Shown here: in pieces, positions 40-10,470 of the stretch
Numbering within the stretch: position 1 is the stretch's first letter
Layout: every line of letters begins with the position of its first letter
Assembly: GCA_031259095.1 (NCBI GenBank)
Contig: JAIRLW010000328.1
Coordinates: 1 to 10,470 of the forward strand
Length of the DNA: 10,470 nt
Direction: 5' to 3'
From: Planctomycetaceae bacterium
Lineage (GTDB): Bacteria; Planctomycetota; Planctomycetia; Pirellulales; Thermoguttaceae
The notes under the pieces: model-generated
Told to the model about the DNA's origin: nothing
Seen by the model: the letters and a program-made list of their open reading frames with translations, nothing else
Databases searched by the model: none
Made by a program: the position numbers and the translations under genes

Positions 40-110
40 GTCCCTACAGTCCTTACAGTCCTTAAAACTGGGGCTAAGGGACATTAGGGACAATAAAGAC
101 TTTAGGGACA
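40..110. repeat. Palindromic 9-bp-unit array, copy A
   Basis: The left arm holds three units resembling GTCCCTACA, and the right arm holds four resembling TTAGGGACA (one degenerate). The arms are complementary, with GTCCTTA opposite TAAGGGAC at the tip. It lies in the cysK leader, ending 57 bp before the start codon. Bases 1-39 are AT-rich, and I could not support a promoter in them. Confidence 0.8.
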
Positions 111-167
111 GATTTTTAAAGGTTTTCCAATAATGACAACCAAAATTAATAAAAAAGGAGTTTATCA

Positions 168-1106
168 ATGAGCCGCAACCGAACTTACGACACCATTACA
201 CAAACAACTTTTGATACGCCGCTTGTTAAATTGGGTAAAATTATTCCCAAAACACATGCTGTTGTTTTATTGAAACTTGAATTTTTCAATCCGCTTTCCA
301 GTGTGAAGGATCGGATTGGGCGTGCGATGATTGAAGCGGCTCAAAATTCGGAAATCTTAAATTCCGAAACTGAAATTATCGAACCGACCAGCGGGAACAC
401 GGGTATTGCTCTTGCTTTTGTTGCGGCTGCCAACGGTTTAAAATTGACGTTGGTGATGCCGGAAACAATGAGTATTGAGCGTCGTCATCTTCTTGCCGCG
501 CTTGGCGCGAATCTTGTTCTGACTCCCGGCGCAGTGGGAATGAAAGGGGCGATTGACCAAGCGTATCAATTGGCGGAGGAAAATCCTAATTCGTGGATAC
601 CGCAACAGTTTGAAAATCCGTCCAATCCGGCGATTCACGAAACAACAACCGGACCGGAAATTTGGTTGGACACACACGGTAAAGTCGATATTTTTTTAAC
701 GGGAATCGGAACCGGCGGCACTTTTACCGGTGTAACGCGATATTTACGGGGACAAAAAAAAGATATTGCCGCGTATGCGGTGGAACCTGCCGATTCGCCT
801 GTTCTTTCCGGCGGACGACCGGGTCCCCATGCGATTCAGGGAATTGGAGCAGGATTTATTCCAAAAAATCTTGACACGTCGCTCATTAACAAAGTCGAAA
901 CGGTTACAGCCGAAGAAGCGTTTTTCTGGGGACGTCGTTTGGCGAAAGAAGAAGGAATTTTGGCGGGAATCAGTAGCGGCGCGAATGTTGCGGTGGCGGC
1001 GCGAGTGGCGGCAAGACCGGAAAACCGCGGTAAAATAATTGTTACCGTCGCGGCAAGTTGCGGCGAACGTTATCTCTCAACGAGATTGTTTAACGATCTG
1101 TTGTAA
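168..1106 (+). CDS. cysK: Cysteine synthase A (O-acetylserine sulfhydrylase)
   Basis: PLP-dependent enzyme that makes L-cysteine from O-acetylserine and sulfide in the cytoplasm, the last step of assimilatory cysteine synthesis. The 312-residue length is normal for CysK. Visible family signatures are NPLSSVKDR with the Schiff-base lysine at K47, the substrate-binding loop TSGNTG (74-79), QQFENPSNPAIHETTTGPEI (146-165), the PLP-phosphate loop GTGGT (181-185), a QGIGAGFIP stretch, ISSGAN and the C-terminal SCGERYLST. The start is well supported: AGGAG at 156-160 lies 7 nt before the ATG. The upstream leader contains a palindromic 9-bp-unit array (40-110), and the gene is followed by another such array rather than a classical terminator. 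No sulfur-assimilation partner such as cysE is visible. A cystathionine beta-synthase-like relative is less likely because the CysK-specific segments match closely and there is no CBS-domain extension. Confidence 0.95.
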   Translation: MSRNRTYDTITQTTFDTPLVKLGKIIPKTHAVVLLKLEFFNPLSSVKDRIGRAMIEAAQNSEILNSETEIIEPTSGNTGIALAFVAAANGLKLTLVMPETMSIERRHLLAALGANLVLTPGAVGMKGAIDQAYQLAEENPNSWIPQQFENPSNPAIHETTTGPEIWLDTHGKVDIFLTGIGTGGTFTGVTRYLRGQKKDIAAYAVEPADSPVLSGGRPGPHAIQGIGAGFIPKNLDTSLINKVETVTAEEAFFWGRRLAKEEGILAGISSGANVAVAARVAARPENRGKIIVTVAASCGERYLSTRLFNDLL

Positions 1107-1133
1107 AACATAAATTTGTTTCAAAAATAACTC

Positions 1134-1224
1134 GTCCCTAATGTCCCTAATATCCCTATTGTCCCTCTAGAATAGAGACGTTAGGGACAAATGGGACAGA
1201 TGGGATAGATGGGACGAATAGGAG
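1134..1224. repeat. Palindromic 9-bp-unit array, copy B
   Basis: Four left-arm units (GTCCCTAAT twice, then two variants) face about five right-arm units (TTAGGGACA, AATGGGACA, GATGGGATA, GATGGGACG, AATAGGAGC). A short tip pairs CTCTA with TAGAG. The 9-bp register is kept within each arm even where units have diverged. It fills much of the cysK-helicase gap and is followed at once by the second repeat motif at 1233. Confidence 0.85.
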
Positions 1225-1232
1225 CAAATACC

Positions 1233-1250
1233 GGTATTTTTGAGGTTCAA
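1233..1250 (+). repeat. Short AGAGGTTCCC-type motif, diverged copy
   Basis: This reads GGTATTTTTGAGGTTCAA and differs from the best copy in the window (8319-8341, other strand) by one deleted base and two changes near the end. It follows array B, as the copy at 7031 follows array D. Confidence 0.55.
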
Positions 1251-1261
1251 CAACAGGGGAA

Positions 1262-1289
1262 TTGTCAAGTTTTGGATGGACGGTAAAAT
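1262..1289 (+). promoter_or_regulatory. Candidate sigma70-type promoter for the helicase gene
   Basis: TTGTCA (1262-1267) and TAAAAT (1284-1289) are separated by 16 bp, giving a predicted transcript start near 1296 and a leader of about 40 nt. Judged by eye only; AT-rich intergenic DNA produces such matches by chance. Confidence 0.4.
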
Positions 1290-1317
1290 AAGGCGTTTTC
1301 GATTTCTTGTTCGAGGT

Positions 1318-1341
1318 ATGAGGTTTTTATCAAAGGCATGA
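1318..1341 (+). other. Seven-codon upstream ORF overlapping the helicase start (ATGA)
   Basis: ATG at 1318 opens a reading frame for MRFLSKA. Its TGA stop (1339-1341) shares bases with the helicase ATG (1338-1340), the arrangement used for translational coupling. GAGG at 1313-1316 is too close to this ATG for ideal pairing, so translation is uncertain. Confidence 0.3.
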
Positions 1342-3326
1342 CGCTGAACGCCGCTCAATTCGATGCTGTAGAAACATTAAGTGGTCCCTTGCTTGTTCTT
1401 GCCGGAGCGGGAACCGGAAAAACGCGCGTTGTTACTTACCGGATTGCCCGTCTTATTCGCAACGGAATTCGTCCTAACCGGATTCTTGCCGTCACGTTCA
1501 CGAACAAAGCGGCAAAGGAAATGCAACACCGTATTGCCGAACTTCTTCAAAACCGTAACCGTAAAGACGCGAAACCGGAAACGTCAACATTTCACTCGCT
1601 TTGTGTTCGGATTTTGCGCCGTCATATCACCAAACTCGGTTATCCGCAACAGTTTGCGATTTATGATCGCGGCGATCAGGAATCGGTGGCACGGCAGGTT
1701 CTCAAGGAAATCAAAGTGTCCGATGCGGCGTTGCGACCCGGTGAAATGCTTGCGCGAATCAGTACGTGGAAAAGCAAAGGGCTTGATCCTGAACAAGCCG
1801 CCGAAGAGATTCATAGCGCCAAAGATTATCTGGCAAGGTTGGCTTATGAGCATTACCAAAATGCGTTGCGGACTGTCGGCGCCGTTGATTTTGACGATCT
1901 TCTTCTTGTTACGGAAGAACTCCTTCGACTACGTCCCGAAATACTCGAAGAGGAATCTAGACGTTTTGATCATCTTTTAGTGGACGAATATCAGGACACG
2001 AATATGAGTCAATACCGTATTGTCAAAGGACTTGCGTTGCCTCATCGGAATCTCTGCGTGGTCGGCGACGACGATCAGGCAATTTACGGTTGGCGCGGCG
2101 CGGACGTCAAACACATTCTGAGTTTTCAACGTGATTGGCCCGACGCTAAAATCATAAGACTTGAAAAAAATTATCGTTCGACAAAACAAATCATCAATTG
2201 GGCAAACCGACTTATTGTTTTCAATAAACATCGGCACGGTAAAAAATTACTTTCGCCGCTTTCGGGAGAACAGCCAACGATTCTGCAATGTAAAGACAGC
2301 GAAACGGAAGCAAAGATTGTTGTTTCAAAAATCAAAGAGCGTCTTGCTTCGGCAAAACGTCAACCGCGTGATTTTGCAATTTTGTTTCGAACCAATGATC
2401 AGCCGCGCGCGTTTGAAATGGAACTCCGAAACGCGAAAATTCCTTACGTTCTGATTGGCGGTCAATCGTTTTTTGACCGTAAGGAAGTCCGCGATGTTTT
2501 ATCGTACTTAAAAGTTCTCAATCATCCTAAAGACGATATTTCATTGTTACGGATTTTGAACACGCCGCCGCGCGGAATTGGGACGACAACCATTCAAAAA
2601 CTAACCGCAACCGCAGTGTCCCAACAAATACCGCTCTGGGATTTGTTGGGAACCGGAGTAGAAACAGTTACGGAATTTCAAGGTAAAACGTCCGACGCTC
2701 TTCATTCGTTCCGCAATTTGATCGAAGACCAGCGCAATAATCTTTGCCGTAATTTTACGGTACAAAATTTGAAAAATTTTCTATCGGTTATTGATTACGA
2801 GCGTGAAATTAACCGTCAGTATCAAGACCCGAATGAACGTTCCAATCGTTGGGATTCAGTGGGAGAAGTTCTCAATGCCGCAGCGGAATATATTAACGAT
2901 ACGGAAAAACCGGTTTTGCGGGAATTTCTGGACAATACCTCGCTTGCCGGTTCCGACTTTGGCAGTGAAAAAAAGCGGGGACTTGGTCAAAACGCGGTTG
3001 TGTTAATGACGTTACATGCCGCCAAAGGACTGGAATTTCCAGAGGTGTTTATGGTTGGTCTGGAAGAAGGAATTTTACCGCATCATCGAAGTGTCAATGA
3101 TGACGATGTTTTTGCGGTTGATGAAGAACGTCGGCTCTGCTATGTCGGTATCACCCGCGCCAAACAACGTTTGACATTAACGCTTGCTCTGCAACGAATG
3201 AAATGGGGAAAAATGCGACCAACTGTTCCAAGTCGTTTTCTTTACGAAATTACGGGACAAGCGGAAAATCCAAATTATTTCCGAGCCATCGCCGGTGAAC
3301 CGCCGCAACGGAAAAAAATGGAATAA
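1338..3326 (+). CDS. UvrD/Rep-family ATP-dependent DNA helicase (Rep/PcrA-like)
   Basis: Superfamily 1A helicase that unwinds DNA 3' to 5' with ATP, acting in repair and at stalled replication forks. All core motifs are present: Walker A GAGTGKT (23-29, K28), Ia AVTFTNKAAKEM (51-62), Ib TFHSL (84-88), Walker B VDEYQDT (215-221, D216/E217), III GDDDQAIYGWRGAD (243-256), IV NYRST (278-282), V TLHAAKGLEFPEV (558-570) and VI RRLCYVGITRAK (598-609). At 662 residues it is close to Rep in size and lacks the long C-terminal tail of many PcrA/UvrD proteins. GDDDQ also resembles Rep, while YGWRGAD resembles PcrA, so I give no symbol. The start fits the family (MTLNAAQFDAV just before Walker A), and an in-frame stop at 1284-1286 blocks extension. 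The ribosome binding site is weak: GAGG at 1320-1323 is 14 nt away. A 7-codon ORF ends in an ATGA overlap with this start. Confidence 0.95.
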   Translation: MTLNAAQFDAVETLSGPLLVLAGAGTGKTRVVTYRIARLIRNGIRPNRILAVTFTNKAAKEMQHRIAELLQNRNRKDAKPETSTFHSLCVRILRRHITKLGYPQQFAIYDRGDQESVARQVLKEIKVSDAALRPGEMLARISTWKSKGLDPEQAAEEIHSAKDYLARLAYEHYQNALRTVGAVDFDDLLLVTEELLRLRPEILEEESRRFDHLLVDEYQDTNMSQYRIVKGLALPHRNLCVVGDDDQAIYGWRGADVKHILSFQRDWPDAKIIRLEKNYRSTKQIINWANRLIVFNKHRHGKKLLSPLSGEQPTILQCKDSETEAKIVVSKIKERLASAKRQPRDFAILFRTNDQPRAFEMELRNAKIPYVLIGGQSFFDRKEVRDVLSYLKVLNHPKDDISLLRILNTPPRGIGTTTIQKLTATAVSQQIPLWDLLGTGVETVTEFQGKTSDALHSFRNLIEDQRNNLCRNFTVQNLKNFLSVIDYEREINRQYQDPNERSNRWDSVGEVLNAAAEYINDTEKPVLREFLDNTSLAGSDFGSEKKRGLGQNAVVLMTLHAAKGLEFPEVFMVGLEEGILPHHRSVNDDDVFAVDEERRLCYVGITRAKQRLTLTLALQRMKWGKMRPTVPSRFLYEITGQAENPNYFRAIAGEPPQRKKME

Positions 3327-3331
3327 TATTA

Positions 3332-3352
3332 GAAAACCTCTCAAAATATCGT
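3332..3352 (-). repeat. Short AGAGGTTCCC-type motif, diverged copy
   Basis: On the - strand this reads CGATATTTTGAGAGGTTTTCT. It forms the gene-proximal end of composite element copy 1. Confidence 0.55.
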
Positions 3353-3384
3353 GTGCCAAAAAATTTTTAATCAATTGATTAACT

Positions 3385-3457
3385 GTCCCTAATGTCCCTT
3401 TAGTCCCTAAAGTCCTTTTTTAGAGGGACTTTAGGGACGATAGAAACGTTAGGGACA
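3385..3457. repeat. Palindromic 9-bp-unit array, copy C
   Basis: Four 9-bp units per arm. The innermost arms GTCCCTAAAGTCC (3403-3415) and GGACTTTAGGGAC (3426-3438) pair perfectly over 13 bp around a 10-base loop. It lies between two convergent genes, so it could stop transcription from both sides, but neither strand has a U-run directly after the stem. Confidence 0.85.
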
Positions 3458-3506
3458 AATGATTTTGATTTTTCATAAAACGTTGCGGTTAAAAAACGAA
3501 GTTATA

Positions 3507-6473
3507 TTACTCTACGAAATTTGCTTGACGAATCATGGACGTTTCTTCGTCGTCCACTTCGATTGTTCTTTTGGGTTTGGTGATTGTTTTTGATTTTGTC
3601 GGCGGTTTTTGCGGTAATTCCGGTACCAAAATATCGGATTCCTCCGCTGAAATCTTGGAAGATACAGAAAGAGGAACTCGTTTATTCATCGTCGCCGACT
3701 TCGTGTGAAGAACAGACGAATTGTGTTCAGGAAATGGTTCTCCACAGTCGGGACAATAACGTAATGATGAATTGCCTGTTAATTGAGGAATAGGAATTTT
3801 AGTTGGTGTTGCCGAAATTTGCGGAACACTTTGCGATGATAAATCCGTTTGACGTGTGTTGTGAACCGTTTGTTGAGCAACCGGAACAGATCGGGACGAC
3901 GGAATTTGTTGCGTCATTGGAATGTTTCGGGAAGTCGGAATGTTTTGAACAATTGATTGATCAATTGGAGTTGATCGGGGAGCGGCTGGTATTGGCGGTC
4001 TTGCGTTTGGCGTGTCCGAACCAAGCAAACCGGAAAAAGGGGAAATCACTCCCCCCACTGCTGAAAGTAAATTTGTTCCCGTCGATTTTGCCGATTGGAG
4101 AAAACCAAAACCGGAAATCGGCGAATTGTTCACCGTATTATTATTCGGCATACCGTTAAACGACATTGTTTGCGGCGTCGTTTGCTGCATTTGCCGAGTT
4201 GGCGCCGCCGCATATCCCGCATATTGAGATGTTACATTATTAGGCGTTCTTACAGGTTGCCCCATATTCGGCGACCTTATTCGATTCGTTACCGTTTGCG
4301 GATTCATTGGTTGATTTATTGGCAATTGATTCATCGGCGAAGTCATCCTTTGTCCGTTTCCCTTCAAAAAACCAAACGCCGACGCAATCATTTTTCTTCC
4401 GCCGCCTGTTGCCGGATTCACATTATAATTGTTATAATTAACGGGTTGAACCGTTTGCGGTGCAGAAATTTGAGGTTGCGTCATCAACGCTTGTTGAATT
4501 CGAGCGGATTCCCAACGTTGATTTTGTTGCGCTAATTGGGCTTGCATCGCTTGTTCCTGAGCCGCCATTTCTCTTGCCGCTTCGTCGCGGATCATTTGTT
4601 TCTGAACCGCTATTTCCTTTGCCGCTTCGTTACGGATTGCCTGTTCCCGAATCGCCATTTCACGCTCCGTCTCTTCCCGAATTTCCTGCTCACGGATTGC
4701 CTGCTCTTCCGCAGTTTGTGCGGCAATACGTTGTGCTTCTTTTCGTAACGAATCTTGGCGAACTTGCAACTCAAGTTCTTTCTGTCTTTCGATTTTTATT
4801 TGAAGTTTTTGAGCCTGTTCCAGAATTTTTTCCTGCATTTTTGTCTTTTCTGATTCTTCCGACTGTGCCGTCAACTCTTCGGATCGCATATCGAGTTCTT
4901 CTTCGACTTCTTCCATCGCGGCAGCCATTCCTTCAAGATACGCCTGCTCCATCGCTTCATTCAAGGCTTCATCGGAAAAAAGACGTTTTGAATCTTTTAA
5001 ATTAATGTTTGAATTTTTTAAATTAATGGAAGTTGTTTTAGCGGCAGTTTTAGCGGACGGGGTTGTTTTTTTGCCATTTCCGGTTCGGGGCGTTACCGGC
5101 AAACCTTCGCTTCGTTGAAAAACAGGCTTCGTCGGAACCGGATGGAATCGCGGAACCGGCATCGACGATTTTATGTCCGCTTCCGTTTCATCTGGTTGCG
5201 TTTCTTCCTCTTCTTCGTTTTCTTCCTTAATTGTTTCTTCAGTATTGATCAAACCGGCTTCGGCGGCAAGTCCGCTATGCCGCGAATAACCAGTCGGCGC
5301 GTAACCAATAGGCGGATAACCGGTTTGAGGAAAACCGCTCATGCTCAAACCGTTCATCGGTTGATTCATCATCGGATAAGCAAAACGATTGTTTGCGGCA
5401 ACTCCAGACATTCCGCCTGCCTGCATAATTCCTCCGGCAGTACCCGGCGATTGCAGAGCCGAAGCGAGTTGGACGGCGTTATTGGAAACCATCGCCACTG
5501 GAACCATCATACCGCAACCGGGTGTTAAACCGCATGGTCGTGTTGCCGTGCAACCCGGATGCATCGCACAGACTTTGATCACTGCCGCATTATTGACCAC
5601 ACCGTTTGGTAATCGGACGCCGGATGGAGTCATGATTCCGACCGGCGTGGTCACGCCGGCCGCCGCCACCACGCCGCCGGTGGTAATGGTCGAAACGCCG
5701 GGAACAATCCCCATCGAAATGAGTAAACCGTTCGGACCTGCAAGAACAGGCGTTTTAGGATTCGGCTGTGCCGGAAGAGACGGTATGGACGGAGTTTCAA
5801 TTGTTTTCTTAGGCGGAATCGGCATCGGAAGAGCAGGGGTATTCGACGGCATTGCGGACGGCATCGTTGTTGATGGTGCAGTTGCTGTACCGGATAAAAC
5901 CATTCCGTTGTTGCCGAGCATTAACATCTGCTGATTCAGGTAGTTCGGATTAGCAGCCCGACCACAATTCGGCGTTAAACCGCATGGTTTCATTGGACTA
6001 CAAAACGGTGTGAGACCGCAAGCCTTTGCCCCATTTCCGATTCCGGCAAAAGAATTGGGATCGGCGGGATCAATCCACATTCCGCAACCGAGAGTCCGAC
6101 AACAAGGATTTTTGGCGGTGCATTCCGGATTCAAACCGCAATGACGACGAAAACCTTTATTTTGTTTATGCCCTTCACAGGAACAATGTTGGTCGCTTCC
6201 TTTTTTGAAACAGTCTAACAGACCTTTTTTACCGGAAGAGCATTTTTCACAACCTTCGATACTGCAACTGTTTTCGTCATCACATCCAGCGTTGGGCGGA
6301 CAACCGACCCAAGGAGTCCGATTGTATTCAAACGCCCAGTCACACCGAAAAAGATGTCCCCGATTTGTTTTTTTGTGCGAGCAACCGGCCAGACCGAAAG
6401 CAAAACCGATTGCGAACAGCAAAATCAGAGTATGAGAAAAACGGAACATTTTGAGGGAAAATAAATTAAACAT
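3507..6473 (-). CDS. Large Cys-rich predicted lipoprotein with coiled coil, family not recognised
   Basis: Hypothetical 988-residue protein; no named family recognised. It starts with a hydrophobic signal sequence ending in lipobox LAGC (lipidated Cys31), so export and membrane anchoring are likely. Order: Cys-rich region 31-171; Pro/Thr linker about 199-245; Gly/Val-rich stretch 246-300; isolated Cys module 302-321; pentapeptide repeats GFPQT/GYPPI/GYAPT/GYSRH (380-399); acidic block 410-433; basic Thr/Lys segment about 460-490; charged coiled coil about 500-660; Gln/Asn/Pro-rich region to about 900; CPDC (907-910); basic tail. Cys modules at 112-130, 152-170 and 302-320 have identical C-x5-C-x5-C-x5-C spacing, and 58-75 is a degenerate fourth. 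An alternative start at Met9 (6449) also leaves a good signal peptide; neither start has a clear Shine-Dalgarno. An envelope structural role is an inference from composition. The gene converges on the helicase gene, and its upstream region carries 14-bp direct repeats. Confidence 0.85.
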   Translation of the reverse strand: MFNLFSLKMFRFSHTLILLFAIGFAFGLAGCSHKKTNRGHLFRCDWAFEYNRTPWVGCPPNAGCDDENSCSIEGCEKCSSGKKGLLDCFKKGSDQHCSCEGHKQNKGFRRHCGLNPECTAKNPCCRTLGCGMWIDPADPNSFAGIGNGAKACGLTPFCSPMKPCGLTPNCGRAANPNYLNQQMLMLGNNGMVLSGTATAPSTTMPSAMPSNTPALPMPIPPKKTIETPSIPSLPAQPNPKTPVLAGPNGLLISMGIVPGVSTITTGGVVAAAGVTTPVGIMTPSGVRLPNGVVNNAAVIKVCAMHPGCTATRPCGLTPGCGMMVPVAMVSNNAVQLASALQSPGTAGGIMQAGGMSGVAANNRFAYPMMNQPMNGLSMSGFPQTGYPPIGYAPTGYSRHSGLAAEAGLINTEETIKEENEEEEETQPDETEADIKSSMPVPRFHPVPTKPVFQRSEGLPVTPRTGNGKKTTPSAKTAAKTTSINLKNSNINLKDSKRLFSDEALNEAMEQAYLEGMAAAMEEVEEELDMRSEELTAQSEESEKTKMQEKILEQAQKLQIKIERQKELELQVRQDSLRKEAQRIAAQTAEEQAIREQEIREETEREMAIREQAIRNEAAKEIAVQKQMIRDEAAREMAAQEQAMQAQLAQQNQRWESARIQQALMTQPQISAPQTVQPVNYNNYNVNPATGGGRKMIASAFGFLKGNGQRMTSPMNQLPINQPMNPQTVTNRIRSPNMGQPVRTPNNVTSQYAGYAAAPTRQMQQTTPQTMSFNGMPNNNTVNNSPISGFGFLQSAKSTGTNLLSAVGGVISPFSGLLGSDTPNARPPIPAAPRSTPIDQSIVQNIPTSRNIPMTQQIPSSRSVPVAQQTVHNTRQTDLSSQSVPQISATPTKIPIPQLTGNSSLRYCPDCGEPFPEHNSSVLHTKSATMNKRVPLSVSSKISAEESDILVPELPQKPPTKSKTITKPKRTIEVDDEETSMIRQANFVE
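4554..4694 (-). repeat. 45-bp in-frame tandem repeat in the lipoprotein coiled coil
   Basis: Residues 594-640 consist of three 15-residue units plus a partial fourth, with the pattern (R/Q)-x-Q-x-I-R-x-E-x-x-(R/K)-E-(M/I)-A-x. The spacing is exactly 15 residues, and the units share much of their DNA sequence, which indicates internal duplication. Confidence 0.75.
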
Positions 6474-6484
6474 GGTCTTTTGTT

Positions 6485-6530
6485 ACCGAGCGGTTGTCAC
6501 CGAAAGGTTATTACCGAGCCGAACTACCGG
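6485..6530 (-). repeat. Three 14-bp direct repeats upstream of the lipoprotein gene
   Basis: On the - strand the units read CTCGGTAATAACCT, TTCGGTGACAACCG and CTCGGTAACAAAAG, directly adjoining, with the last ending 3 bp before the ATG at 6473. A weaker CGG-containing half unit precedes them. If the promoter candidate at 6562-6589 is right, they lie in the 5' leader and could act as a regulator site or in the RNA. Confidence 0.6.
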
Positions 6531-6561
6531 TTTATTTTGTGTGTTTTGCCGATTCTTTGTA

Positions 6562-6589
6562 ATTCTAGTTTACGTGGTTGAAGTCAAAA
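6562..6589 (-). promoter_or_regulatory. Weak candidate promoter for the lipoprotein gene
   Basis: On the - strand, TAGAAT (6562-6567) follows TTTTGA (6584-6589) by 16 bp. A better -35-like TTGACT (6582-6587) is only 14 bp away. Transcription would begin about 80 nt before the start codon. Speculative. Confidence 0.25.
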
Positions 6590-6645
6590 ATTAGATTAAT
6601 TGATTACTTATATTAATTGAGCATCTCTAAAAATTAATTTTATTT

Positions 6646-6667
6646 CGATTTCAGTTGACTGAAATCG
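6646..6667. repeat. Perfect inverted repeat, 9-bp arms
   Basis: CGATTTCAG and CTGAAATCG are separated by TTGA; a further T-A pair extends the stem to 10 bp. It sits in the middle of the MITE-like unit in the 585-bp gap upstream of the lipoprotein gene. It could be an operator or a hairpin. No U-run follows on either strand. Confidence 0.6.
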
Positions 6668-6700
6668 ATTAAAATCGAATCATTTGTTTTTGGAAAAGGT

Positions 6701-6718
6701 ATATTTAGAGGTTCCCAA
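6701..6718 (+). repeat. Short AGAGGTTCCC-type motif
   Basis: Reads ATATTTAGAGGTTCCCAA and forms the right end of the MITE-like unit. The stretch from 6723 to 6883 is AT-rich and shows no gene or convincing signal. Confidence 0.6.
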
Positions 6719-6915
6719 TTGATTAAAATATTAAAATCAAGATCAAGCGCAACACTGACCCATTGCGGTAAACATCGGCACGATATAAACGGAATAATTA
6801 GAAAAACCGTTAAACTCCCCTCATTTTTACAAAATTTTCCTAATGTTTAGAAGTTTTTGTTAAAATAGGTAAAAGTTTTCAGATTTTAACCAAAACATTT
6901 TATGAAAAATCATTA

Positions 6916-6979
6916 GTCCCTAATGTTCCATTAGTCCCTATAAAAAGGGACTTTAGGGACGATAGGGACATTAGGGACA
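6916..6979. repeat. Palindromic 9-bp-unit array, copy D
   Basis: Three left-arm units (GTCCCTAAT and variants) face four right-arm units (AAAAGGGAC, TTTAGGGAC, GATAGGGAC, ATTAGGGAC). The tip pairs AGTCCCT with AGGGACT. It lies inside composite element copy 2. Confidence 0.85.
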
Positions 6980-7030
6980 AATAATCAATTAATTAAAAGA
7001 ATTAAAAGAATTAAAAATTTTTTGGCAAAT

Positions 7031-7053
7031 GATATTTTTAGAGATTCCCTAAT
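7031..7053 (+). repeat. Short AGAGGTTCCC-type motif
   Basis: Begins GATATTTTTAGAGATTCCCT and forms the gene-proximal end of composite element copy 2. Confidence 0.6.
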
Positions 7054-7058
7054 CTTGT

Positions 7059-8285
7059 TCACGTGAATACCTCAGAGGTGGGCGACCCTTTCTCCGGCAA
7101 GATTTCAATCCAAGGCAGTCCCCAACTTCCAATTTCATTCATAAAAGGATCGGGATCAAATTGTTCCATGTTGAAAACGCCGCAACCATTCCATTGACCG
7201 GTGAGAATCATTTTCGCTCCCAACACCGCCGGAACTGCTGTGGTGTAACTAATCGCCTGAGCGCCGGTTTCGGTAAAACATTCTTCGTGAACACAGACGT
7301 TGTAAATGTAATAGTTTTTAGATTGTCCGCGCTGTTCGCCGGTAATCCAACAACCAATACAGGTTTTGCCCTTTGTTCTTGCGCCCAACGAAGCGGGATC
7401 GGGAAGCAATGCTTTTAGAAATCGCAGCGGAATAATTTCCCGACCTTCAAACATGACCGGATCAATCCGCGTCATTCCGACATTTTCCAGAACTTTCAGA
7501 TGAGTCAAATACGATTGTCCAAACGTCATCCAAAACCGCATTCGCCTGATTTCAGGAAAATGTTTGGTTAACGATTCCATCTCCTCATGGTAAAGCAAAT
7601 AAATATCTTTTGGTCCGATACCGTCGGGAAAATCGAATATCTTTTTAACAGCAAGCGGTTCGGTTTCGTGCCAGGTACCGTTTTCGAAAAATCGTCCTTT
7701 GGCGGAAACTTCACGGATATTGATTTCCGGGTTGAAATTGGTTGCAAACGGATAGCCGTGATCACCAGCGTTGCAATCGATAATATCGACGGTTTCCATT
7801 CGGTCGAAATGATGTTTTCTGGCGTACGCGGTATAAACGTTGGTCATACCGGGGTCAAATCCGCTGCCAAGCAACGCTAAAAGTCCGGCTTTTTCGAAAC
7901 GTTCCTGATAAGCCCATTGAGGTGCATAACAAAATTTCGCCGTATCAGGATGTTCATAATTAGCGGTGTCCAGATAATGAACGCCGGTTTCAAGGCAGGC
8001 GTCCATTATGGTTAAGTCTTGATACGGCAACGCAACATGAATGACCAGATTCGGTTTGACGTCGTTAATAAGCGCAACAAGTTCGGAAACGTTATCCGCG
8101 TCCACCGTTTCAGTACGAATTTCCTCTTGCCAGCCGTGAGCGTGAATATCCTGAACAATCGCGTCGCATTTCGATTTGGTTCGGCTGGCAAAAGTAATCT
8201 GTTGAAAAACGTCACGATGTTGAGCGCACTTGAACGCAGCAACTCGTCCAACTCCGCCCGCGCCAATAATCAATACTCGATTCAT
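7059..8285 (-). CDS. Carboxynorspermidine/carboxyspermidine synthase (saccharopine dehydrogenase-like)
   Basis: NADPH-dependent enzyme that condenses aspartate semialdehyde with 1,3-diaminopropane or putrescine to give carboxynorspermidine or carboxyspermidine. The next step, decarboxylation by NspC, yields norspermidine or spermidine without S-adenosylmethionine decarboxylase. This 408-residue reading has a Rossmann motif GAGGVG (8-13) followed by family-typical GSGFDPGMTN (140-149), YPFATNFNPEINIREV (178-193), a KDIYLLYHEE segment and GVFNMEQFDPDPFM (369-382). These resemble carboxynorspermidine synthases more than lysine-pathway saccharopine dehydrogenases. The start at 8285 is chosen because the protein opens with MNRVLIIGAGGVG and AGAGGG-type pairing is available: AGAGGG at 8291-8296 lies 5 nt upstream. 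The frame stays open to a TTG at 8417, but that extension runs through a repeat motif and is probably untranslated. The decarboxylase gene is not in the window. pyrG lies upstream on the same strand. Confidence 0.9.
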   Translation of the reverse strand: MNRVLIIGAGGVGRVAAFKCAQHRDVFQQITFASRTKSKCDAIVQDIHAHGWQEEIRTETVDADNVSELVALINDVKPNLVIHVALPYQDLTIMDACLETGVHYLDTANYEHPDTAKFCYAPQWAYQERFEKAGLLALLGSGFDPGMTNVYTAYARKHHFDRMETVDIIDCNAGDHGYPFATNFNPEINIREVSAKGRFFENGTWHETEPLAVKKIFDFPDGIGPKDIYLLYHEEMESLTKHFPEIRRMRFWMTFGQSYLTHLKVLENVGMTRIDPVMFEGREIIPLRFLKALLPDPASLGARTKGKTCIGCWITGEQRGQSKNYYIYNVCVHEECFTETGAQAISYTTAVPAVLGAKMILTGQWNGCGVFNMEQFDPDPFMNEIGSWGLPWIEILPEKGSPTSEVFT

Positions 8286-8318
8286 AAAATCCCTCTTGGT
8301 CTTGTTTGTACAAAAAAT

Positions 8319-8341
8319 ATTTTGGGAACCTCTAAAAATAC
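8319..8341 (-). repeat. Short AGAGGTTCCC-type motif, cleanest copy
   Basis: On the - strand it contains GGTATTTTTAGAGGTTCCC, the best match to the consensus of this family. It lies in the 179-bp gap between pyrG and the polyamine gene, 34 bp before the chosen start. The rest of that gap shows no other feature apart from the ribosome binding site. Confidence 0.6.
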
Positions 8342-8464
8342 CATTGTTGAAAACTCTGAGCGACCTTTGCGGTGGATTGTTGGTCGTGTCTTCGGTCATG
8401 TTGGTATTGATTTCCAATAGGCAATTATTTTAGACTGGAACCATTGAAATTGCAAGAGACCGTT

Positions 8465-10081
8465 TTAGTTAGCTCTTGTTGATTTTCCGTGTTGTTGAAC
8501 GGCGGCGGCAATGAAACCGTCGAACAGAGGATGAGGTTTGGTTGGGTGTGACTTAAATTCGGGATGATACTGAACACCGACAAACCAAGAATGATCCGGT
8601 AACTCGATCACCTCAACCAATTTACCGTCGGGACTTGTTCCGGAAATTAACAGTCCGGAATTTTGAAACTGTTCCCGATACGTATTGTTAAACTCAAAAC
8701 GATGTCGATGACGTTCTGAAATATTTTTATTACCATAATGGGCAAACGCTTTACCCGATGGAGTTAATGTTGTCGGTTGCGCTCCAAGCCGCATTGTTCC
8801 GCCTTTATCCGTAACATTCCGTTGCGCATCCATGAGCGTAATCACCGGATACGGAGTTGCCGGATCAAATTCTGTTGAGTTTGCGCCGTGAAAGCCGGCG
8901 ACATTTCGTGCAAATTCGATCACCGCGCATTGCATTCCAAGACAAATTCCGAAAAACGGGATTCCGTGTTCTCTGGCGAATTGCACCGCGTCGATTTTTC
9001 CCTCTACGCCGCGATCTCCGAATCCGCCGGGAACCAAAATACCGTTCACCTCTTCCAGCCGACTCAGATCAAGTTCGTCGCTCGGAATTCCGCGAACCCG
9101 TACATTAACCCGATTCTTAATTCCCGCATGATCAAGCGATTCATAAATTGATTTGTAAGCGTCTTTGTGTTTGGCGTATTTACCGACAACAGCAATGGTT
9201 ACTTCGTGTAACGGATGACGAAGACGATCCAGAATATCAAACCACGCGGTTAAATCCGGCGGATTCCGGTATTCCAGATTACGCCAGAAAAATTCGATCA
9301 CCCGTTGGTCAAGACCATGCTGTTGAAGCGTAATCGGAACTTCGTAAATCGAAAACTCCGCATCTTTTTCCTCAATCACATTTCGGCTTTCCAAGTTACA
9401 AAATAAACCGATTTTATCGCGTTCCGTACTGCTGATGGCGTGTTCCGTCCGGCAAACCAAAATGTCCGGCTGAATACCGATTTGACGAAGACGACTCACC
9501 GAATGTTGTGTTGGTTTTGTTTTGAGTTCGCCGGACGATTTCAGATACGGAATTAACGTCAAATGCAGGAACAGACAGTTTTCACGACCAACATCCAACG
9601 CAAATTGACGAATTGCTTCCAAAAACGGCAAACTCTCAATATCGCCCACCGTTCCGCCAATCTCCGTCAAAACAACATCAACATCACGACTCCGTAAACT
9701 TCGTATTGCACGCTTAATTTCATTCGTAATATGCGGCACCACCTGAACCGTTTTACCGAGATATTTTCCTTTCCGCTCGCGCCGTAACACATTCCGGTAA
9801 ATTTTTCCGGTAGTCCAACTGCTGTTTTTTGAAAGGTCGCTACTGGTAAAACGTTCATAGTGTCCGAGATCGAGATCGGTTTCGGATCCATCGTCGAGAA
9901 CGTACACTTCGCCATGTTGATACGGACTCATTGTTCCCGGATCAACATTCAGATACGGGTCAAGTTTTTGCATTCGGATGGATAAGCCCCGCGACTCAAG
10001 AAGCATTCCAAGCGACGCTGCCGTCAGTCCCTTGCCAAGAGAACTCACCACGCCGCCCGTTATAAAAATGTGTTTGGTCAT
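8465..10081 (-). CDS. pyrG: CTP synthase
   Basis: Converts UTP to CTP in the cytoplasm using ATP and glutamine, the last step of de novo pyrimidine nucleotide synthesis. At 538 residues it has full family length. The N-terminal synthetase domain (about 1-265) opens with [13 protein letters not shown], contains K17 of the ATP-binding loop, and has [14 protein letters not shown] (38-51), [23 protein letters not shown] (split around 56-78) and [11 protein letters not shown] (140-150). The C-terminal class I glutamine amidotransferase domain has the oxyanion segment PGGFGDRG (351-358), nucleophile Cys380 in GICLGMQ, and the His506/Glu508 pair in QYHPEF. No key residue is missing. The start matches the conserved [10 protein letters not shown] opening; the ribosome binding site is weak, with GGA about 7 nt upstream. 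A palindromic 9-bp-unit array sits 40 bp upstream. The next gene on this strand follows after 179 bp. Confidence 0.97.
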
Positions 10082-10121
10082 AAAGTTATCCGGAAAAATT
10101 CAATAATAACTAAGGAACAAG

Positions 10122-10207
10122 TTGTCCCATAGTGTCCCATTCGTCCCTAATGTCCCTTCACTGAACAAGTGTTAGGGACATTAGGGACAATAAGGACTGT
10201 TGAGACA
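10122..10207. repeat. Palindromic 9-bp-unit array, copy E
   Basis: The longest perfect pairing of the five arrays: GTCCCTAATGTCCCT (10143-10157) and AGGGACATTAGGGAC (10174-10188) pair over 15 bp, with a CACT/AGTG tip around GAACA. Further diverged units flank both sides. It sits 40 bp upstream of the pyrG start. Confidence 0.85.
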
Positions 10208-10210
10208 AAA

Positions 10211-10263
10211 GGTAGGCAACGTTTCACTAATTCTTGCAACCTTTCGGCAAAAGGTCGCCTACC
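10211..10263. repeat. Nested inverted repeat downstream of array E
   Basis: The outer arms GGTAGGC (10211-10217) and GCCTACC (10257-10263) enclose an inner hairpin, CCTTT/AAAGG around CGGCA. The structure could be a REP-like palindrome or a small structured RNA; nothing else supports either. The remaining 10264-10470 shows no gene I can support. Confidence 0.4.
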
Positions 10264-10470
10264 AGACGCAGGGTTTTCATAAATCTTTACTACTAAAGGA
10301 TTTACGGAAACATATAAGCGGCGGTTCACTGCCGGGTTCATTCCTCAAAACGGCGTTGTTCACCAGGGACAGGAATTGATGTAAACTATTGATTATAAAC
10401 GGGTTATGAAATATTTGGGTGCAAACACACATTAAGATGCTCACTTTAAAGCAACTTTGATGTTATTATT

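Follow-up and report, generated by a model that had tools for sequence, protein, structure and literature searches.

Arrays in the window and across the genome

The 10,470-nucleotide stretch analysed here (the window), from contig JAIRLW010000328.1 of a Planctomycetaceae bacterium (assembly GCA_031259095.1), carries five intergenic arrays built from units of the 9-bp word TTAGGGACA. The arrays lie at positions 40-110, 1134-1224, 3385-3457, 6916-6979 and 10122-10207 (arrays 1 to 5), where a preliminary description had placed them; the 9-bp register is intact in all five, and they occupy five of the six gaps around called genes. Array 2 is located between cysteine-synthase-like and UvrD-like genes and array 5 is upstream of the CTP synthase gene. 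As single strands, all five are predicted to fold more stably than dinucleotide shuffles (z of -4.9, -6.0, -9.8, -7.3 and -7.6 for arrays 1 to 5, respectively). As set out below, at least a good part of these arrays probably form the interior of short, non-autonomous transposable elements bounded by terminal inverted repeats (TIRs), similar to miniature inverted-repeat transposable elements (MITEs).

The suggestion that the arrays represent a major genome-wide family, and not a mere handful of copies, is borne out. The source assembly (G000; 3.84 Mb, 653 contigs, 78% complete) matches TTAGGGACATTAGGGACA at 97 sites when one mismatch is allowed, whereas the reversed control has no match. Our array detector identified 121 arrays in 81 contigs, 60 of them selected for carrying a match and one (L207) covered up to 20 kb, compared with no array groups in shuffled sequence and one when the 81 contigs were simulated with a first-order Markov model. 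Twenty contigs hand-picked out of 60 random contig numbers (four of the 20 read entirely N) provided 94.8 kb of readable sequence with 10 arrays, which extrapolates to ~405 arrays per genome. This density is probably underestimated, because none of the 20 contigs has a TTAGGGACATTAGGGACA match, though 7 of the 60 do. The window, with five arrays in 10.5 kb, exceeds this sample in density. The sequence around array 3 (3334-3503) has no match in plasmids or phages, and the exact 18-mer used for the search across phyla (see below) has none in viral contigs.

The arrays share a common design, as had been proposed. In 143 arrays of the source genome (those of the window together with 80 contig stretches and 30 short loci), a GTCCC left arm faces a GGGAC right arm in 55 two-armed arrays and the polarity is reversed in one; the remaining arrays have one detectable arm (81) or two same-sense arms (six). 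The tips between the arms had been described as all different. Two tip types nevertheless recur among the 55 tips, in both orientations: by eye, a TATAAAAA/TTTTTAGA type accounts for ~15 and a CACTGAA type for ~9.

Middle units (n = 127, picked regardless of their own sequence) carry 1.1-1.7 bits per position in the core and 0.5-1.0 bits in the spacer. This pattern could be taken to mean that the arrays are repeated sites for a DNA-binding protein that reads the GGGAC core every 9 bp and leaves the spacer free. We find this quite improbable, since the word is unmatched in 14 of the 20 sister genomes (the other six have 3-11 matches), whereas other words are matched hundreds of times in several genomes of this set, and since the conservation of the core could be left over from copying combined with A/T drift in the spacers.

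Terminal inverted repeats and subfamilies

When up to 286 flanks, each at most 150 bp long, were compared all-versus-all, conserved sequence ran outward from the arrays to a common end, TTTTTAGAGRTTCCC, among the matches listed. The element end is a TIR, GGGAAYCTCTAAAAAT. There are 232 matches to GGGAAYYTCTAAAAA with at most two mismatches in 579 kb, compared with four in a mononucleotide shuffle, and outward-facing TIRs cluster 20-80 bp beyond the array edges, 61 in the right orientation vs 8 in the wrong one. With at most three mismatches and within 110 bp, a TIR occurs on at least one side of 54 of the 121 arrays and on both sides of 14, whereas swapped orientation gives 10 and 0 and a reversed decoy 7 and 0. 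When four mismatches are allowed the counts are 66 and 25 (swapped orientation, 30 and 2; decoy, 29 and 0). Because TIRs are dense in this genome, their orientation and distance are better evidence than their mere presence, and it is the fixed orientation, a property of MITEs, that is found at the 54 arrays.

Many arrays adjoin subterminal regions that are conserved and have GGGAAYCTCTAAAAAT as their end, and such elements recur genome-wide as alignable subfamilies. Two of these, type I and type II, can be aligned end to end on hand-picked members (seven and six, respectively); type I has the structure GGGAAYCTCTAAAAATTCGTTTTTTARCCRCAACGTTTTATGAAAAATCA - array - AATCAATTAATTAAAAATCTTTTGGCAAAYGATATTTTTAGAGATTCCC, and type II differs in its subterminal stretches. 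Within one subfamily, arm length varies by whole 9-bp units. Flank profiles built from these members (E <=0.01) give 155 hits, 93 of them with an inward array no more than 90 bp away, and they recognise 44 of the 121 arrays. The median length of array-holding elements with both ends at four or fewer mismatches (n = 25) is 172 bp. Like MITEs, the elements are thus too short to hold a transposase gene and are present in many copies.

Arrays 3 and 4 of the window, both absent from the profile training set, match type I. The element containing array 3 (here 3385-3456) spans 3332-3503 on the minus strand and is near full length, with a profile hit at 3334-3503 (145 bits, E 6e-43), matches to both flank profiles (3466-3502 and 3335-3372) and a left TIR at 3332-3346 with three mismatches; its right TIR is not recognised. 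The element containing array 4 spans 6880-7049 on the plus strand, coextensive with its profile hit (115.6 bits, E 5.9e-34). Here the flank profile matches 6884-6912 and 7009-7049, the right TIR at 7035-7049 is exact (0 mismatches), and the left TIR is not recognised. Arrays 3 and 4 thus belong to two almost complete, oppositely oriented copies of one ~170-bp element, which indicates that copies spread as units. The preliminary description had attributed the arrays to expansion of units or selection for a long hairpin and not to copying of one fixed sequence. Expansion of units does occur, on top of copying, whereas the rejection of copying is not supported, given the subterminal flanks and end repeats shared by many arrays, the alignable subfamilies and the match of arrays 3 and 4 to type I.

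Target-site duplications

The same TIRs bound elements with other contents. In the 579 kb there are 52 TIR pairs less than 400 bp apart, 48 of which span 78-233 bp, and these contain TTAGGGACA units (16 pairs), TCGATTT-type repeats (32) or neither (four). The longest flanking repeat in the 51 pairs of 75-400 bp is 4 bp in 16 cases, 3 bp in one and 2 bp in three, and 31 have none. An exact 4-bp flanking repeat occurs in 14 of 32 pairs in the 75-125-bp class, compared with 3.3% when flanks are swapped. Target-site duplication, a further property of MITEs, is therefore found for the TIR family as a whole.

The window itself includes one such element without TTAGGGACA units, 98 bp in length, at 6619-6716 (no strand assigned). 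Its TIRs have two and one mismatches, and it is flanked by a 4-bp duplication, AATT, at 6615-6618 and 6717-6720. A lone exact TIR, GGGAACCTCTAAAAA, at 8324-8338 on the plus strand (0 mismatches), for which no partner was found, is probably a remnant.

Gene context and predicted RNA structure

Gaps were classified using open reading frames (ORFs) called by length alone. Among the arrays of the 81 contigs, 114 are non-coding and lie in tandem gaps (58), in divergent gaps (20), in convergent gaps (17) or at contig edges (19), and seven further arrays are mostly inside called ORFs. Densities are 1.2, 0.7 and 1.5 arrays per kb of tandem, divergent and convergent gap, respectively. In tandem gaps the array centre falls within the last fifth before the next start in only 1 of 58 cases, as expected if leader-damaging insertions are lost.

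This context, together with the strong predicted folding, bears on the idea that the arrays are structural RNA hairpins under selection, functioning as terminators, 3'-end protectors or leader regulators. The roughly twofold higher density in convergent gaps (17 arrays in 11.4 kb) than in divergent gaps (20 in 28.0 kb) is in its favour. A family of intrinsic terminators would be confined to the 3' sides of genes, however, and the position of 20 of the 114 non-coding arrays in divergent gaps supports the earlier remark that termination alone does not explain the arrays. On the transcribed strand of 26 two-armed tandem-gap arrays, G·U mismatches are as frequent as A·C mismatches (31 vs 29, p 0.90), so no RNA pairing constraint is visible in this sample, and the proposed selection for a long hairpin, if it is to act on RNA, gains no support from these strand-specific mismatches. 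The covariation expected between arms is weak at best: across 44 arrays, own arms are complementary at 18.14 of 23 positions and swapped arms at 17.59 (z 2.8), a slight excess that could be explained by subfamily structure alone. A scan of the window against Rfam yielded no family at gathering score, the sub-threshold matches being mostly to microRNA families. No TTAGGGACA array was seen by eye next to those orthologues of cysK, uvrD and pyrG that were read in sister species, where gene order often differs. Overall, selected RNA hairpins are an unlikely explanation, and an effect of the arrays on neighbouring transcripts, if any, would be a by-product with no demonstrated function.

Search for a transposase

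Several potential transposase partners were considered and rejected. PF01609 has four matches in the source genome, all in short open frames. One IS5-type transposase fragment (L238) was discarded because its close relatives end in GAGAAAAGGTCTA and not in the TIR, and IS701-type fragments were discarded because their conserved end is TTAGGAAAGGGCAG, despite the presence of a TIR right behind one copy. Five TIR pairs 1.0-2.5 kb apart in the source genome, and likewise the TIR-pair candidates in sibling genomes, enclose ORFs that were not transposase-like by eye (no profile search was made).

The IS701-like transposase has 14 matches on 11 contigs of the source genome, as fragments that are often near contig ends (loci L240, L280, L284, L288, L292, L293, L295, L299 and L300). 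Those at L284 and L295 are in or beside TIR elements and look like insertions into them.

The arrays are palindromic, intergenic and high in copy number, as are REPINs, and could accordingly be imagined as repetitive extragenic palindromic (REP)/REPIN-type elements moved by a REP-associated tyrosine transposase (RAYT). We consider this extremely improbable. The Y1 family, PF01797, has no matches in the source genome (78% complete) and is present in 14 of the 20 sisters; the elements are bounded by TIRs and are part of a TIR family with 4-bp duplications; and the sequence flanking the arrays is mostly AAAT, not GTAG, with GTAGGC or GTAGCC facing the array within 60 bp in 10 of 121 arrays.

Sister species and other phyla

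Closely related TIRs, GGNAACTTCTAAAAACC, bound other short elements in the source genome and in sister species, many with 4-bp duplications and some with other 9-bp words. GGNAACTTCTAAAAACC agrees with the TIR of the TTAGGGACA elements at 14 of 17 positions. Within the genus it is present in 19 of 21 genomes and is most frequent in G018 (710 matches); G011 has 425, G000 310, G017 253 and G012 113. The reversed control has 0-2 matches, with the exception of G016 (14 vs 20).

Beyond the genus, the TTAGGGACA word occurs in 1 of 40 other-genus genomes of the family (two matches) and in 1 of 38 other-family genomes of the order (one match). Several sister genomes are rich in other words: matches to CTCTGTGTTCTCTGTG number 794 in G011, 560 in G020, 361 in G017, 251 in G004, 208 in G008 and six in G000, and those to AATCTGTGTAATCTGTG number 376 in G017 and 36 in G005, with no other genome exceeding 12. 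Words inside the sister elements were read by eye. In G019, a TTAGGGACA array lies between two GGNAACTTCTAAAAACC-type ends without duplication (L141:13-189). Degenerate GACAGGATT arrays occur between such TIRs in G012, each with an exact 4-bp duplication (L130, L306 and L324), and ACACAGAGA arrays do so in G011, with a duplication of 4 bp (L223), 5 bp (L219) or none (L220), and in G017, with none (L143, L311 and L329). Arrays of CACGAAAAA type are found between such TIRs in G007 and G001 (L326 and L327), also with no duplication. Across 30 genus-wide loci, 8 of 18 TIR pairs have a 4-bp duplication, or 7 of 17 distinct ones, L305 and L323 being one element. Non-array interiors also occur, for example GC-rich palindromes in L312, L315, L322 and L330.

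The cysteine-synthase leader was compared in nine orthologues. Those of G012, G001 and G018 hold tandem 9-bp words that are mutually different and unlike that of G000. In the other six, no 9-bp word was recognised by eye, and G013 and G016 hold other repeats.

Two further kinds of repeat were encountered in the genus. An element of ~240 bp in G017 (L145:3157, L145:12107, L232:3429, L232:5964 and L233:14157) occurs in several copies and represents another interior type of a related TIR; its ends resemble GGGCGTCTCTAAAAATTCATTTG and its interior has GTAGGCGG palindromes. Arrays of other periods (L239, L104, L163 and L098) consist of 8-bp ATTACCTC/GAGGTAAT or 7-bp TAGTGAA/TAATAGT units.

One conceivable account of these observations is that, in this genus, a single TIR family repeatedly carries interiors of facing arrays with ~9-bp units, in which the word is replaced from species to species while unit length and ends remain constant. 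We regard this as doubtful. If true, it would imply that 9-bp units are read or made by some agent indifferent to their sequence, for example by copying in 9-bp steps or by a host factor that favours such hairpins, and the replacement of words would be a new mode of MITE evolution. The words ACACAGAGA and AATCTGTGT are common in unrelated bacterial assemblies, so the same plan may extend beyond the genus.

An exact 18-mer scan of a genome collection comprising 84,980 species, from which the records of the source genome may be left out, returned 25 stretches: seven contigs of one Parachlamydiaceae assembly, two of another Chlamydiae assembly, one of a Planctomycetaceae assembly and 15 others. 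Five of these 15 (L061, L062, L066, L067 and L077) were put through the array detector and have single-sense units only. Common descent with the Parachlamydiaceae arrays was considered and rejected. The two-armed arrays there have the opposite polarity in 4 of 4 cases and those loci have no TIR within two mismatches, so the TTAGGGACA word seems to have arisen separately in this group. In the Parachlamydiaceae assembly (L063, L071, L072 and L078), TTAGGGACA arrays of up to 13 units face opposite-sense arms, some of them at contig ends.

Other features of the window

The three remaining window arrays, none of which is assigned a strand, are less readily placed. Array 1 is a possible short derivative at 24-127, with degenerate TIR-like ends directly outside the arms; the best TIR matches have four and three mismatches and there is no target duplication, making this a weak assignment. 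Array 2 has a TIR-like end on the right only (1236-1250, four mismatches; also weak) and matches the element profiles mainly over their array part. Array 5 adjoins a GTAGGC...GCCTAC palindrome.

Beyond that palindrome, the region 10208-10440 includes a conserved stretch, ACATATAAG...TTCACTGCCGGGTTCA...CTCAAAACGGCGTTGTTCACC, which recurs behind cysK in sister G018 (L038) and partly in L296, and which could be another dispersed element or an RNA. The motif TTTGGCGCAATAATTGCT, which resembles a sigma-54 promoter, is found upstream of cysK in sister species (several of L032-L038). The window seems to begin inside it (1-20), and array 1 is located between this TTTGGCGCAATAATTGCT-like site and the cysK start codon. 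The ORF at 3507-6473 is predicted to encode a 988-aa protein with a lipoprotein-like N-terminus and no Pfam match at E 0.001.

Origin of the arrays

Several results weigh against the interpretation of the arrays as interiors of MITE-like elements. At three mismatches, 67 of the 121 arrays lack a TIR, including array 5 of the window, where none was detected, and the assignments of arrays 1 and 2 are weak. A TIR also occurs within 170 bp of 107 of 380 random intergenic points. There is no class-wide duplication signal for the TTAGGGACA elements: only 1 of 25 has an exact duplication (L117:11023-11150, AATG), and at least three of four duplication positions match in 16% of them, vs 14.7% with flanks swapped. 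A second duplication, TATT, flanks L116:2085-2296, the array of which is too degenerate for the array detector. Under looser TIR criteria, sibling stretches have an exact 4-bp duplication in 5 of 28 pairs. The ACACAGAGA word in G008 is flanked by quite different ends, which speaks against a strict link between word and end. No autonomous element or transposase with these ends was found in the 78% complete assembly, other transposase families not having been searched, and no clean empty site was found in the sibling pieces already fetched, the only ones searched. The TTAGGGACA elements, lacking a duplication signal, may be of greater age or may have spread by a different route.

Some of these points would fit an origin in which the arrays arise locally and independently, by slippage or hairpin-templated copying, and TIR elements are merely frequent neighbours. 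The many arrays without TIRs, the TIRs near random intergenic points and the missing duplication signal of the TTAGGGACA class are all compatible with it, as is the variation of unit number within subfamilies. Such an origin does not account for the specific orientation and distance of the TIRs, for array-to-TIR flanks that align across copies or for tips common to several arrays, and we judge it very unlikely.

Under the preferred interpretation, as MITE-like elements, a transposase recognising these TIRs, encoded in the unassembled part of the genome or now lost, would have copied the elements into intergenic sites. The 9-bp units would have grown and shrunk through slippage or through copying between hairpin arms, and the elements would have been tolerated mostly away from start codons. 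Elements of this kind, dispersed among the genes of a little-studied genus, account for a repeat that might otherwise be mistaken for terminators or binding sites. The related ends and different 9-bp words of the sister species also provide a natural series that allows the turnover of words to be distinguished from the expansion of units and the spread of elements.

Comparison with known systems

BOX elements of Streptococcus pneumoniae are also modular with a repeated inner part, although their inner module is longer. The GTAG and CGTC families of REP elements resemble the present elements in being palindromic, intergenic and high in copy number, and one study reports that the range of both super-families includes the Planctomycetes (PMC3733652). 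Unlike REP elements, those described here are bounded by TIRs and contain tandem units, and no RAYT was found in the source genome. The TAACTGA heptamer arrays of Beggiatoaceae are likewise short tandem words that are intergenic and scattered among unrelated phyla, but they are direct repeats, located mostly just upstream of start codons in Maribeggiatoa, and the abstract describing them makes no mention of TIRs (PMC4679880).

The closest precedent is the BrickBuilt MITE of Porphyromonas gingivalis, a minisatellite within a TIR-bounded intergenic element, copies of which retain no remnant of a transposase; a 4-bp AAAA duplication is reported at one P. gulae site (PMC4596501). BrickBuilt has 23-bp units in a direct array and 19 copies in ATCC 33277 (PMC4596501), whereas the elements described here consist of 9-bp units arranged as two facing arms, have an extrapolated copy number in the hundreds and carry several different words within one TIR family. 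We did not find these elements described in the openly licensed PubMed Central literature. The kind of element, a MITE with a minisatellite, is known from BrickBuilt. As far as literature searches show, the novelty lies in facing arms of 9-bp units, in copy number and in words that are species-specific, and the occurrence of such words under one TIR family is the unusual part.

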